A DNA stretch of 64,000 nucleotides from Telmatactis stephensoni (lineage: Eukaryota; Cnidaria; Anthozoa; Actiniaria; Isophelliidae), in contig JALIZF010001609.1 of assembly GCA_029948255.1 (NCBI GenBank), positions 372,001 through 436,000 of the forward strand. Reading direction: 5' to 3'. Positions 5,003 through 51,199 of the stretch are shown one piece after another. The notes beneath the pieces were generated by a model that was not told the origin of the DNA, did not search any database, and saw nothing but the letters and a program-made list of their open reading frames with translations. Position 1 is the first letter of the stretch. Each line of letters starts with the position of its first letter. Position numbers and translations under genes: made by a program.

Positions 5003-5087
5003 TCAAATTCTGTAATAAAGATGGCATTGCCACACATTCTGCATTCGCCGTTTTCAAAAGCTGATTATTAAACTGGAAAGGCGTTAT
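5003..5087. repeat. 85-bp direct repeat, copy 2
   Basis: Second copy of 4273-4357. It abuts the end of the RT catalytic half, which stops right after the motif YRRYVDDTLVIMP. Confidence 0.9.
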
Positions 5088-6130
5088 GTTGGCATAATTA
5101 CTAGAGTGTCATCTACATATCGTCGATAGAAAGTTGGAAGCAATCCATCAGACACCAGCTTTTCTTCAAGATAACACATGAAAGCATTGGCCATTAAAGG
5201 GCCTAACGGAGACCCCATCGCAACTCCATCTATTTGCTCGTACAGAGAGCCGTTAAACTGGAACAGTTGGTTTGTTGTAGCGATTTCCAAAAGACTAGCC
5301 AGCTGATCTTTTTGGAGATTAAGATCGTATGTACGGTTAAACCAATCATCCAAAAAGGCTTTTTCGGTTAATATACCAATAGTTTCCTTCAGGGGGACGT
5401 TGGTAAACAGTGATGTAACATCATATGAAGCCAATATTTCATCTTCCTTTATGTGGATATTTCTGATTTCTTCAGCAAAACCAAAGTCATCGTTGATTGT
5501 ATAATCATTAACTTACAGTGGTTTGAGTTTCTCTTCTAACCATTTAGCAAGTTTAAAGTTGTAGCTATCGGTTGCAGAAAGGATAGGCCTCATACTAAGA
5601 GTGGGTTTGTGCGTTTTAGGTAAACCATAGAGATGAGCCAATCTGGAGCTTTTTGGGCACAGTGATTCAGCAAGAGGAGCTGGAAGTATATCTCGAACAA
5701 CTTTGTTAAATGCTTTTTCTTTATGCAAGAGAGGATGAAAGTGCTTAGGAGATCTTCCTCTGGTCTTACGTCTTTCTTCGTCGATCTCAGTAAACTTGGA
5801 TGTATCGTTGACTGAGGATTCAGCTAGGAGACGTAGATACTGAACTTTATCCATTACAACAACGCCGGTTCCTTTATCCGCTCTTGTGATAATAATATCA
5901 TCCTTCTTTCGTAGCCGTTCCAAAGCTTTCGAAAGAGCTTTAGGTGAATTAGGAGATTTATGATTGATATAGTTCAAAGCAATCGAGCGTAACGTTGAAC
6001 TTGCTAGATCTTTCTTGTTGGTGTCGGTTAGAAAGTCTTCCATTTTCCAAAAGGCTTTCTCGAAGCTTGCTTCAATCTCAACTGGCGATGTTTTCTGTGG
6101 TAGGGAAAATTTTAATCCTCTACAAAGCAC
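5087..6130 (-). pseudogene. Penelope-like reverse transcriptase, N-terminal and catalytic part
   Basis: The first 205 residues (5513-6130) include RADKGTGVVVMDK and RPILSATDSYNFKLAKW, both typical of Penelope-like RTs. The frame then meets a single TAA at 5513-5515 and continues in the same frame through SYDVTSLFTNVPL (motif A), QIDGVAMGSPLGPLMANAF (motif B) and YRRYVDDTLV (motif C, YVDD). Both catalytic aspartates of motif C are present. It stops at the 85-bp repeat at 5003-5087. One nonsense codon plus the 3-kb break make this a recent but dead copy. The start near 6130 lies just after a hairpin-rich stretch and may not be the original start. Confidence 0.88.
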
Positions 6131-12576: not shown

Positions 12577-14217
12577 TCAGTGATGTTTGACTTCATGCTC
12601 TTTAAGGTACGCTTTACGAGTAAATCCTAGACCACAGATTTTACACCCATACGGTTTTATGCCAGTGTGAACGTATTCATGACGCATAACAATTGCTCTT
12701 TGTGTAAATGACTTTCCACACGTCTTACATTTATACGGTTTTGTTCCAGTGTGAATATATTCATGATGTTTTAACGTTCGTTTTTCAGTAAATGACCTTC
12801 CACAGGTTTTACATTTATGGAGCTTTGTACCGGTGTGAATATATTCATGTTTTTTAAGAAGTGAAGATTGTGTAAACCTCTTTCCACATGTTTTACATTC
12901 ATATGGTTTTATCCCAGTGTGATTAAAACTATGAAGTTTAAGAGCTCTCTTATTTGTAAATCCTTTACCACAAGTCTCACATTCAAATGGTTTAGTATCA
13001 CTGTGAATGTATTCATGACTTTTAAGGCTTACTTTTTGCGCAAACTTATGACCACAGATTTTACATTCAAATGGTTTTTGTCCAGTGTGAGTATTTTCAT
13101 GAATTTTAAGGTTTCCTTTCAAGACAAACGCCTTACCACAAACTTTACACACATATGGCTTCTTTCCACTGTGAATAAGTTCATGAACCTTAAGATATTG
13201 TGGGTTTGCACATCTCTTGCCACATGTTTTACACTCGCACGGTTTTGTATCACTGTGAATGTATTCATGAAGTTTAAGGTGATACTTGTCTATAAATGCT
13301 TTTCCACAGGTTTCACACTTATGTGGTCTTTTGCCAGTGTGAATGCATTCATGACGTCTAAGGTTAGGCCGCCTTGGAAATCTCTTACCACAAATTTTAC
13401 ATTCGTGCTTTTTGACCCCAGTGTGAGTGTCCTCATGACGTTTATGATCACTCTTATGTATAAATTTCTTTCCACAGGTTTTACATTCAAAAAGTCTCTT
13501 TCTCATAGTTAAATTCGACTGACAGTCTTCCGTAAACTTTTGATTGTTTTGGGATGCAGATTCGATTTCGCTGTTTACTGGTGGATGTCCTTCATCACTA
13601 CCATCCAACACACTGCAGTCCCCTGTAACCTCAGTCATTCCTTGGATTTCACTTTCACCATCCAATACTGTGTTCTCACTTTGTCCTGATGCTGGTATAG
13701 CATCGAGTACGTCAACCACTGCCAAATGGAAACTTTCTGTCAATGGGCTTTCATTTCTGACGGCATTGATGGACTCCATCAAACCACGATTACTATCGGC
13801 AATAACGTGGGGCTCATTACGAAGATCTTCATTACAGTTTTTTCGTGATATTGATGAAACATCCTCATCCAACTGTAAACTACAAAGATTTTGAACAATA
13901 TTTGGTAGTATCAAACCACAGTCATTAAACCGATCACCCTGGTTAATACATCCTAGATCGTTGTCTGTTTTATCCTCCATCATAAGGTGAGATTCGTTTT
14001 CGCAATCAAATACTAAATCACTGCTTTCTTTTGATGTTGATGCAGCATCCCCATCCAACTGTGACCTACATAGGTTTTCGTTGTCAAGACTGTTTGGCTT
14101 TATCAAACTATCATCTACATGTACAGACAAACATCCATTACTACATCCATAATCCTCAGTTTGTGTTCCCACACAGACAAGTAGCCGTCCAAAAATTGGT
14201 GTTCCATCTTCATAGCC
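12577..14217 (-). CDS. C2H2 zinc-finger protein, main exon (11 fingers)
   Basis: Second coding exon of a predicted 585-residue nuclear DNA-binding protein. The acceptor ttttag|GGC at 14217 is in phase 0, matching the exon at 14542-14658. After GYEDGTPIFGRLLVC comes an acidic, serine- and asparagine-rich spacer of about 220 residues. Eleven C2H2 fingers follow, from FECKTCGKKF to YGCKICGLGF, joined mostly by TG(x)KP(Y/F)-type linkers, with SD(T)KP and SGKKP in three places. All pairs are CxxC and HxxxH. The fingers occupy roughly residues 277-585 and the stop is at 12577-12579. The target is unknown. The array looks intact, so the gene is probably functional. Confidence 0.9.
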   Translation of the reverse strand, partial: GYEDGTPIFGRLLVCVGTQTEDYGCSNGCLSVHVDDSLIKPNSLDNENLCRSQLDGDAASTSKESSDLVFDCENESHLMMEDKTDNDLGCINQGDRFNDCGLILPNIVQNLCSLQLDEDVSSISRKNCNEDLRNEPHVIADSNRGLMESINAVRNESPLTESFHLAVVDVLDAIPASGQSENTVLDGESEIQGMTEVTGDCSVLDGSDEGHPPVNSEIESASQNNQKFTEDCQSNLTMRKRLFECKTCGKKFIHKSDHKRHEDTHTGVKKHECKICGKRFPRRPNLRRHECIHTGKRPHKCETCGKAFIDKYHLKLHEYIHSDTKPCECKTCGKRCANPQYLKVHELIHSGKKPYVCKVCGKAFVLKGNLKIHENTHTGQKPFECKICGHKFAQKVSLKSHEYIHSDTKPFECETCGKGFTNKRALKLHSFNHTGIKPYECKTCGKRFTQSSLLKKHEYIHTGTKLHKCKTCGRSFTEKRTLKHHEYIHTGTKPYKCKTCGKSFTQRAIVMRHEYVHTGIKPYGCKICGLGFTRKAYLKEHEVKHH

Positions 14218-23300: not shown

Positions 23301-24155
23301 TGTAGCTTTCATTAGCTTTAAATACCATTAAATAACGGACCACTGAAGGAGAGAGGGGGGTAAAATGAGCGCACCGTCGACCTCAAGTTTATCAGTTACC
23401 CAAATTACTGCCACGAGCTATCGACGTAAAATATGGTCGCTTTTATTCCCAAGAAATTAAAGTAGCCCTGTTCTAACACCAACAACTTTTTCCACTCAGG
23501 CATACAGTTGGTCAATTCGATTCACGCTGGTTTACTGCACATACGTTCGACCGTTACAGTGATTTATTCCTCGCGTCATGCAAAATTTGCTCTTCCTGAC
23601 GTCAGGATATATGTTGGCAGTATTCTCTATCCAATTACATCAATCCTATCACTAAACGTCCATTTACAACTAGTGCCGGAAAAGTGATTCGACTAGTAAA
23701 TGAAGATGGTGATGTGAAACTAATAAGAACGATTTAAGTGTCGGAGACAGGAGACATTTTCGCGTGTCAACATCGTTAACTTAACGTAAAAATTACGCTT
23801 TGTTTATAAGAGCTAGAGTCAGTGTTAACTAGAAAAAAATTCAGTAAAAGTAAGACGAAAATATAAACAAAAGAATATATTCATGTTTAATGCGAAGTAG
23901 TATAAAAAAACTGTTGATAAACGTTTACAATGTAATTGAAAAACATTGTAAACAGATCACTTTCTCTCTTCTTTCTTAAATTTGTAAATTTAAAATTTGT
24001 TAACATTTTAAAAAGATCACTTTCCTCTAGGATAATTACAACATATAACTTAACACTTTTTGACTTAGTCAAATGTTCTGTTTTGTCTGATCATGATCGG
24101 AAAAATCTGACTTGTACAATAGACACTGCACGGTCTTTTAAAGTGAAAACTGAAC
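23301..24155. other. Non-coding stretch
   Basis: No gene recognised. Two similar short pieces, each with 'aaaagatcactttc' or 'aacagatcactttc', occur near 23951 and 24012. Confidence 0.5.
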
Positions 24156-44218: not shown

Positions 44219-44435
44219 ATGTACATTTCGTTAAGATACAATCGACTACACGGCAATGATTATTGCAATTGTAAAGTACCAACCGAATGTCAGTAATCTG
44301 TGTTTTTTGGGGAAATCTCAAGAATTTCACTGTTTCCGCAAACTAACAGAAACGAGAAAACGAACGAATAAACAGCTAGACGAACGAATTAAAAATACTT
44401 TCTTTAATTTAACATTGTTGCTCATTATTTTTCAG
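41495..44435 (+). other. Candidate intron of neuropeptide gene
   Basis: It contains a GATG-like repeat (43060-43150), a G-rich polypurine tract (43708-43870) and a (GAT)n run (44183-44217). No other gene recognised. Confidence 0.4.
43708..43870 (+). repeat. G-rich tract with a run of about 20 G
   Basis: Contains an unbroken guanine run at about 43716-43734, a second at 43788-43797 and several GGGGGA units, so G-quadruplex formation is likely. The complementary strand gives poly-Pro frames, which are artefacts. Confidence 0.9.
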
Positions 44436-44444
44436 ACTGTCAAT

Positions 44445-44930
44445 ATGATTATAAAAGTTTTTCTAGTCCTTCTTGGGGCAATAGCTGTTTGTAAACCAGA
44501 TCTTATGTCAAAGGACAGTAGAGTAGCCAGATCAATGTCCAGTTTTGCCAATAAATGTCCCCCAGGCCTTTGGTGCGGTAAAAAGCGTTCAGTGACTGAA
44601 ACAGGAAAATTAGAAGAAGCTTTTCCCAAATCTATAGACGAAAAATTATCGATGTCCAATTTTGCTGCAAAGTGTCCTCCTGGTTTGTGGTGTGGAAAAA
44701 GAAAGAGAGAAGCTCCAGCGGTAGAGACGGAGGCCGAACAACTGATGAAAACCCCCGAAAATTCCTTCCCTCAAGAAAGCATTCAAGGCCAACAGCAATC
44801 CCCTGTAAATCCCAAATTAGTTCGCCGCTTTATGGAAGTGTGTCCCCCCGGTCTGTGGTGCGGAAAGAAGAGAAGCCTTAAATCAAAATTTGCCACCAAC
44901 TGTCCCCCCGGATTATGGTGCGGCAAATAG
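44445..44930 (+). CDS. Neuropeptide precursor with four CPPGLWC-amide copies
   Basis: 161-residue prepropeptide. The ATG at 44445 follows an acceptor (tttttcag|ACTGTCAAT) and starts a signal peptide (MIIKVFLVLLGAIAVC). An open frame reaches further upstream to 44256, but that part would be intronic and lacks a signal peptide. Four copies of CPPGLWC-G follow at residues 38-45, 77-84, 133-140 and 153-160, the first three before KKR or KRKR and the last before a terminal K. Glycine then basic residues is the standard signal for C-terminal amidation and prohormone cleavage. Each peptide would carry a seven-residue Cys-Cys loop around PPGLW. PPGLW-amide ends are characteristic of cnidarian GLWamides, which act in neurons and in larval settlement. 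The spacers are acidic. AATAAA at 45144. Confidence 0.9.
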   Translation: MIIKVFLVLLGAIAVCKPDLMSKDSRVARSMSSFANKCPPGLWCGKKRSVTETGKLEEAFPKSIDEKLSMSNFAAKCPPGLWCGKRKREAPAVETEAEQLMKTPENSFPQESIQGQQQSPVNPKLVRRFMEVCPPGLWCGKKRSLKSKFATNCPPGLWCGK

Positions 44931-49653: not shown

Positions 49654-49946
49654 CGTATTTAGTAATCATTTTATCAAGTGATAGATAAAAGTCGAGTAAG
49701 TTTGCTGAGTCAATGTAACGCAGAATTTACATCTGAATGTCTTGTAAACATGAGAAAAATATATTTGGTTTGCAATGCACAACGTTGCACAATACCATCA
49801 GGTACCATCAGGTATACTTCCATGGTTTCTCGTTATTGATTGTTATTATATATTAAAAGCAATGAAACGTGCGCAATTTAGCGATAATGTACTATATAGA
49901 CCAAATATAAAGGTTTTCTTCAAAATTTGTCTTCAATGTTTCTTAC

Positions 49947-50462
49947 CAATGCTGCGACGTGTTTTTTCGTTCCTGTCGTACTGTCCTGTCTCACTATCAT
50001 TGAGATCCAAGATTTTAGCAATAGAAAAGGAACAGCGACTTGAAGAAGTCTGGCTCTCTTCCATGTTGCCAAGGCTCCGTTTACAGCCATCCGTACCCCA
50101 GTTAACTTCACCGTCTAGCATCTGGTTTCTAGAGGGAACATCCTCGCTGCTGCTGCCATTGCTCCATCCCTCGCCTTCCATGGACTCGTAAGGGCGCTGG
50201 TGGCACAGTGCTTGATTGTAATACCTGGCGTCTCTTTCTTCGCTTTCTTTTCTGCGTTTACATTTTCCTGGTTCAATGGAGCCTGTTTCTTGGTACTTTG
50301 CTAGCAGTTTACTGATACAACCGTGAGAGACACGAAGGCATCTACTGATGTCACAAGGGCGTGTTCCTCTCTCAGCCATGTCTATGATTTGCTGACGGAC
50401 ACGGCGAGGGAGAGGTTTGCCATTCACGAATAGTCCTCCTAACTGATTGATCTTGCCCTCTC
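49947..50462 (-). CDS. Pax homeobox protein, paired-domain (PAI) exon
   Basis: Entered in phase 1 from an acceptor tttttttag|GA. It encodes [20 protein letters not shown], then [41 protein letters not shown]. This is the N-terminal PAI half of a paired domain, including the DNA-contacting turn and the helix-turn-helix. After GSIEPG the expected linker and RED half are absent. Instead there is [16 protein letters not shown] and about 80 polar residues. FSIAKILDL then fits the Pax octapeptide/eh1 pattern FxIxxIL, which recruits Groucho-type corepressors. It ends RRSIG|GTAAGA in phase 1. The nuclear regulator is probably nearest to cnidarian PaxD/Pax3/7-like genes. The 5' exon was not found. Confidence 0.88.
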
Positions 50463-50549
50463 CTAAAAAAATAAACAAAAAATGTGATTTAGAATTCTTA
50501 ATAGAGCGATTTAGTTTTCTGCGATGTTTACACAACTCTCGGGGAAAAG

Positions 50550-51199
50550 ATTCTTTTGTTCAAAATGAGCTTTCTCTTGTGTCTTCTTGATCAAAACATT
50601 TCGAACAAGAATCTAATTCCCAAAGGGATTGAAACAGGAAAGCACTTAACACAGTTCAATTAAATCGCTCTATTAAGAAGAAAGTCTGTATAATAATTAT
50701 ATTCTGCATGAATAAATCCATATGAAATTTAACACACTCAAGAGTGTTGTATTATACTTGATTTTAACAGGCCATGAATAAATCTAGTTTCTTTACCGGT
50801 AAAAACCCTTGCCATTTTCCTTTACGAATATTGCTGGAAGGTATTTGAGCTTTGACGGTGGCCGGTCGCAAATAAATTATTTGATCTGTTGATCTTGTTT
50901 TTAAAAGTAGCTCATATTATAAATAGAAAAACCCAGTAGATGATGAAATATCATGCAAAGATTAAAGCTACGACAGAAAAATAATGAAGAGGATTCTTCG
51001 CTGATGTAAAACTCCCGAACTTTTTTATCAAAGTCGCGCTCACTATAATACCTATCTTAAATACAGTCTTAATCCCAGGGTTATTGGAAATGGAAAATTC
51101 TAGAATCTGCTAATCAGTGAACCTACTCCTTGTATTTAAATTATCGAGTGTCTGTTTTTCCCTTTTTGGTTTAAGTTATCACTTATTTCTATTTTTGTT
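50550..51199. other. Non-coding stretch upstream of Pax exon
   Basis: No exon for the missing Pax N-terminus was recognised. Both 50510-50560 and 50650-50690 carry 'aatcgctctattaaga' in opposite orientation. Confidence 0.4.

Follow-up and report, generated by a model that had tools for sequence, protein, structure and literature searches.

The described peptides closest to those considered here are the GLWamides, which include metamorphosin A (pQQPPGLWamide) and coral peptides such as GPPGLWamide (PMC7523074), and the products of the Nematostella gene NvLWamide-like (Nv242283). The section of PMC6152798 on the latter predicts that it releases QCPPGLWGC peptides and not GLWamides, and neuronal expression of the gene and of its reporter is described for Nematostella in the relevant parts of PMC4968017 and PMC8128482. 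Cyclic cnidarian peptides have also been predicted for Clytia (GPPCRWGCamide; PMC8638164) and for scyphozoans (CTSPMCWFRPamide; PMC6909153).

A related precursor gene lies in the window, by which we mean the whole 64-kb stretch of Telmatactis DNA analysed here. A preliminary description had placed at 44445..44930 a secreted-looking multi-copy precursor with four CPPGLWC-G units, basic sites after the first three, and in every unit a PPGLW core enclosed by two cysteines and followed by an amidation signal. The reading frame and a pattern search bear out each of these points, down to the exact coordinates, with the signal peptide supported by hydropathy. The features, including flanking signals predicted from the DNA sequence, are as follows.

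44428..44436, plus strand: possible 3' splice site (TTTTTCAG followed by A), just 5' of the ATG
44445..44930, plus strand: prepropeptide coding sequence, 161 aa, an amidation-type (type A) CPPGLWC precursor; open reading frame with its ATG at 44445 and its stop ending at 44930
44445..44492, plus strand: probable signal peptide MIIKVFLVLLGAIAVC, from hydropathy and from hydrophobic N-termini aligned in relatives
44556..44576, plus strand: CPPGLWC copy 1, with RVARSMSSFANK before it and GKKR after it (44577-44588)
44673..44693, plus strand: CPPGLWC copy 2, with DEKLSMSNFAAK before it and GKRKR after it (44694-44708)
44841..44861, plus strand: CPPGLWC copy 3, with dibasic RR and then FMEV before it and GKKR after it (44862-44873)
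44901..44921, plus strand: CPPGLWC copy 4, with KKR and then SLKSKFATN before it and GK-stop after it (44922-44930)
44992, plus strand: second possible polyadenylation signal, ATTAAA
45144..45149, plus strand: possible polyadenylation signal, AATAAA

The putative splice site upstream of the ATG suggests an intron in the 5'-UTR. In the protein, the units begin at residues 38, 77, 133 and 153, behind a strongly hydrophobic N-terminus (Kyte-Doolittle mean up to 3.14 in 11-residue windows). A degenerate DNA pattern for CPPGLWCG, with three mismatches allowed, found four sites in the 64-kb window, all within this reading frame and with no mismatch; 100 shuffled versions of the window gave a mean of 0.01 sites and never four, which rules out a chance origin of the units. 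Any two of the four copies are distinguished by 4-7 silent differences in 24 bases, which excludes a recent DNA tandem repeat and points to constraint on the protein sequence of the unit. The GK-stop ending recurs in 12 of the 81 proteins collected below, the window protein among them. A solved-structure search with the window protein gave no match at E<=10, and AlphaFold gave no confident fold (mean pLDDT 47.9, from an alignment of only eight sequences), which is weakly consistent with an unfolded precursor.

Like NvLWamide-like, as far as that gene is set out in the sources above, the window gene combines a hydrophobic N-terminal stretch with many cysteine-flanked copies and basic sites. The cores of NvLWamide-like are PPGLW or LPGVW between cysteines, whereas the window gene has PPGLW; the former carries an extra glycine between the tryptophan and the second cysteine, making an eight-residue ring, whereas the latter would form a ring of seven; and NvLWamide-like has no glycine after the second cysteine, hence no amidation, whereas the window units continue as GKKR, GKRKR, GKKR and GK-stop. 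The eight-residue C[PL]PGxWGC ring is absent from the window gene, whose ring is CPPGLWC, and none of its units has the basic residues directly after the cysteine that are found in the NvLWamide-like type. With the GLWamides named above the window gene shares the PPGLW core and a multi-copy amidated precursor, but in those peptides the amide sits on tryptophan and there is no cysteine ring, whereas the window peptides have a predicted ring and a predicted amide on cysteine. Judged by these predicted products, the window peptide is by definition not a GLWamide, nor is it of the NvLWamide-like type, which the same genome encodes in a separate CPPGVWGC frame.

The Clytia peptide, from an RWGamide precursor, shares a predicted cystine ring and a Cys-amide with the window peptide, and the scyphozoan one, from a cyclic FR-type precursor, shares a predicted cystine ring; as published in those texts, both differ from it in sequence and ring size. 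Arthropod CCAP, PFCNAFTGC-amide, is a seven-residue disulfide ring ending in a Cys-amide, and its resemblance to the window peptide is one of form only: the CCAP Pfam model PF11105 had no match to the window protein at E<=10 and scored below its cut-off against a Nematostella relative, P0033 (16.0 against 27, E 0.012), so that membership was rejected.

Relatives were collected in successive searches. The window protein itself (P0001) gave seven matches among 40 candidates; an alignment of these eight sequences (A1) gave 65 matches at E<=10 among 5173 candidates, reaching Nematostella P0048 and P0054; and an alignment of 17 sequences (A2) gave at least 57 matches at E<=1 among 7994 scored candidates, reaching a hydrozoan protein of type C, Clytia hemisphaerica P0080. 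Matches by name include Actinia tenebrosa LOC116291611 (P0007), Nematostella LOC116610157 (P0033) and LOC116612021 (P0048), and proteins of Stylophora (P0040), Montipora (P0057), Porites evermanni (P0067) and Desmophyllum (P0075). Nematostella P0054, which is named 'LWamide neuropeptides' and holds the CLPGVWGC/CPPGLWGC units of NvLWamide-like, is also among them. An insect match (P0065, E 5.3, no unit) was taken as chance.

Three kinds of unit were distinguished: type A, CPPGLWC-G[KR], a pattern into which the amidation signal is built because G[KR] is required; type B, CPPGLWC-[KR][KR], without glycine; and C[PL]PGxW[GTV]C, which covers type C and a relative. Of 81 proteins, 41 have A units only, 24 B only, eight C[PL]PGxW[GTV]C, two both A and B, and six none; each protein stands for a 90%-identity cluster, the window protein is one of them, many are fragments, and the figures do not count species. 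P0028 was classed as mixed because R replaces glycine in one of its units. The six proteins in which no unit was counted are P0061-P0066: a truncated CPPGLWCG stands at the end of P0066, P0064 has one CPPGLWCGIGR, and some of the six are probably unrelated. An earlier count of 66 proteins under a different rule found amidation-type units in 38 of them, 164 in all, of which 149 read CPPGLWC.

Conservation across anthozoans is supported by the recovery of the family, with type A in Actinia, Nematostella and Porites. The Nematostella type-A protein has three CPPGLWC units, one CPVGLWC and one CHVGLWC. In the Porites gene model A units come first and B units after; annotation may have joined two adjacent genes here. 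The Nematostella A, B and C proteins have host sequences of equal size (19,000,648), which suggests that their genes lie on one chromosome. Matches between subtypes are driven by the repeat. If the broader family is taken to comprise secreted-looking precursors that repeat the unit C-P-P-G-[LVI]-W-(0-1)-C, the window protein has both features, and on sequence evidence the gene is a member of a conserved, little-described family in corals and anemones, with a resemblance to a published gene for neuronal peptides.

Further candidate members occur in the same genome. In its assembly (1782 contigs, 483.5 Mb), the window protein matched only itself at E<=1e-3 and so missed the other frames, which came to light when a coral CPPGVWGC protein (P0069) served as query; this query also matches the window gene (E 8.2e-6). 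The frames recovered are these.

C16:721973-722659: open frame (L008) that holds CPPGVWGC nine times, with Gln ahead of the ring; resembles NvLWamide-like
C16:730063-730977: open frame (L010) with thirteen CPPGIWNC units, 7-8 kb from the CPPGVWGC frame
C8:122006-123271, minus strand: open frame (L012) with sixteen CPPGLWC-KR units
C131:718043-718249: small open frame (L014) whose four CPPGIW[TV]C units are followed by KKKR or stop

Together with the window gene, the genome thus holds at least five precursor-like frames. The frame on C8 has the same CPPGLWC ring as the window gene, but without the amidation glycine; among the frames recovered the window gene is the sole amidation-type gene, and there may be additional ones. 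The CPPGIWNC frame is a 78-bp tandem array of 13.3 copies with 92% matches, and an open frame upstream in the same locus holds one CPVGVWGC. No nearby paralogue was found in the 64-kb window, where one pattern match at 23502 runs through stops and was dismissed as chance, or in 58 kb of flank, where a lone CPPG (L007) was not accepted as a unit. Weak matches on C80, C346 and C410 (E 0.02-0.3) have no CPPGxW unit and were set aside. Long open frames at C346:133000-134400 (L017) and C410:111500-112900 (L018) carry an unrelated CPAYMGVC-type tandem repeat reading CPAYMGVCLRSMSGVSILQR.

In the relatives compared, conservation is concentrated in the unit. Identity to the window protein in units and in spacers, the latter computed without residues 1-17, is 36/36 and 43/100 for P0002, 35/36 and 22/101 for P0003, 36/36 and 17/75 for P0004, 36/36 and 36/94 for P0005, 35/36 and 31/99 for P0006, 35/36 and 34/91 for P0007, and 27/36 and 17/68 for P0008. 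Unit identity is therefore 35/36 or 36/36 in six of the seven compared relatives, while the spacers have diverged. The residues before the ring also vary in the window protein and other relatives: RR, for example, is followed by FMEV in the window protein, FMDN in P0002, ASTS in Nematostella and Q in P0008, P0045 and P0046. Both Arg of the RR upstream of copy 3 are invariant in all seven aligned sequences, window included.

We consider it likely that the gene encodes a secreted precursor of cyclic Cys-amides, most probably neuropeptides that act on G-protein-coupled receptors of their own. After removal of the signal peptide, the cysteines at either end of every CPPGLWC unit would pair into a seven-residue disulfide ring, a prohormone convertase would cleave at the basic sites, a carboxypeptidase would trim the K/R residues, and an amidating enzyme would convert the exposed glycine into an amide on the second cysteine, before a presumed release from neurons. 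A cyclic amidated signalling peptide is, from these motifs, the most likely product. Among the 177 type-A units of 43 proteins, KR stands immediately before the first cysteine in 127, and the predicted product there is the bare ring, CPPGLWC-amide. Phe lies four residues upstream of the first cysteine in all four window copies (44544-44900) and in 149 of the 177 units (118 of the 127 with KR, 31 of the 50 without), against an overall Phe content of 3.7% in these proteins; if the relatives cut at KR, this residue would be excluded from their peptide.

The window gene itself may yield the bare ring, or else peptides with an N-terminal extension, for instance FMEVCPPGLWC-amide. A dibasic site near the ring occurs only at copy 3 (RR, four residues upstream); in copy 4 KKR sits nine residues upstream, in copies 1 and 2 a single K immediately precedes the first cysteine, and RVAR upstream of copy 1 has the Rxx-R form. 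Mass spectrometry in Nematostella, as reported in the main text of PMC11087051, found N-terminal cuts at KR, RR and KK, a non-dibasic N-terminal motif with Pro at peptide positions 2 and 3 and often an acidic residue before, and, at the C-terminus, cleavage at dibasic sites and at some of the form Rxx-R. The RR before copy 3 fits the dibasic rule, and extended forms would fit the dibasic sites of the window gene; the bare seven-residue peptide needs a cut immediately before the first cysteine, and because CPPGLWC fits the Pro-Pro rule of that text, the bare ring is possible in Telmatactis too. Computed [M+H]+ values are 772.327 for disulfide CPPGLWC-amide (774.343 reduced), 1278.547 for FMEVCPPGLWC-amide, 1205.523 for FATNCPPGLWC-amide and 1624.707 for SMSSFANKCPPGLWC-amide.

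Secreted effectors (antimicrobial, mucus or venom), in which ring and amide would serve stability, are an unlikely but not negligible alternative. Many copies of a short disulfide ring that contains Trp would be in keeping with such a role, the CPPGLWC-KR precursors carry additional cysteine-containing segments, and neural expression of the amidation type was not found in the literature searched, the published neuronal expression there being that of the NvLWamide-like branch only. Against this, the ring is near-invariant across diverged relatives, as is commoner in ligands of receptors than in effectors, which evolve fast. P0008, which has three units reading CPTGLWC and retains only 27/36 unit positions, is one point against the neuropeptide reading; others are the peptide surveys without such a string, listed below, and the failure of the window protein to match the other precursors of its genome at E<=1e-3.

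A divergent classical GLWamide precursor acting on GLWamide receptors is very improbable. The PPGLW core equals that of coral GPPGLWamide in the text of PMC7523074; yet all four units read GLWC-G, with cysteine and not glycine directly after the tryptophan, which leaves no possibility of a Trp-amide, and the section of PMC6152798 on NvLWamide-like concludes likewise for that gene. The preliminary label 'GLWamide-like' needs to be changed: the peptide falls outside the GLWamide definition and groups with the disulfide peptides, one branch of which, CPPG[LV]WGC, has been published as NvLWamide-like. That receptor use would differ from that of classical GLWamides, as first proposed, is a fair inference. 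The least probable reading, in which the repeats belong to an uncleaved, folded cysteine-rich (lustrin-like) secreted protein, draws on P0003 (30.0), P0048 (33.2) and P0009 (37.1) exceeding the Pfam Lustrin_cystein cut-off of 27 as whole proteins, but their best stretches each fail E<=1 alone, the best stretches span 10 to 21 of 46 positions on the CPPGLWC letters, P0033 stays below the cut-off (21.6) and P0054 has no such match, basic sites follow the units, the eight-sequence AlphaFold model has no fold, and the window protein scores 17.5 against 27 over 12 of 46 positions of PF14625, for which domain membership was rejected.

The idea of a disulfide GLW-type peptide is partly known already. 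A prior description exists for the sister branch, NvLWamide-like; as far as the main texts searched go, the amidated branch seems not to have been described. The string CPPGLWC was not found in them, related strings were found there only in PMC6152798, and no further cnidarian paper among them contained a sister-type peptide string; five other papers that contain a five-letter string deal, to judge by their titles, with phage display, ovarian cancer or polymers. In their main texts, PMC11087051, PMC9525235 and PMC6756747 lack GLWC, LWC and CPP, despite the existence of an amidation-type gene in Nematostella (P0033). GLWC and LWC are likewise absent from the main texts of the surveys PMC7523074, PMC6909153 and PMC8638164 and the reviews PMC9545775 and PMC7270403, and PPGLW from PMC12225738 (Clytia and coral larvae). 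The identifiers LOC116610157, LOC116612021 and LOC116291611 occur in no paper searched. According to its main text, PMC11087051 gives 33 Nematostella precursors in a supplement, among which LOC116610157 may be included; the same text reports a 'GLWL' peptide.

Of more interest than the amidated branch is the wider family, of which a single genome carries at least five precursor frames. Tentatively, and at somewhat less than even confidence, we propose an old cnidarian family of disulfide CPPG[LVI]W peptides that would run alongside the linear GLWamides, predate the split between corals and anemones and the hydrozoans and act on its own receptors. Separate genes of a genome would supply several rings, and CPPGLWC would occur in two forms, an amide from the window gene and a free acid from the C8 frame, with amidation alone defining two signals. 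An identical ring from two genes, as amide and as acid, would allow a direct test of the role of the amide. The conserved family, with its link to NvLWamide-like, a gene in use as a neuronal reporter, would offer precise synthetic ligands for orphan receptors, and PPGLW-based antibodies or searches can mistake one peptide system for the other.

Other features of the window, all on the minus strand, are a reverse-transcriptase piece at 5084-5512 (RVT_1, E 2.5e-8), a 546-residue open frame at 12577-14217 with many C2H2 zinc fingers, and an open frame at 49933-50559, probably one exon, encoding the beginning of a paired-box (PAX) domain (E 1.7e-30).
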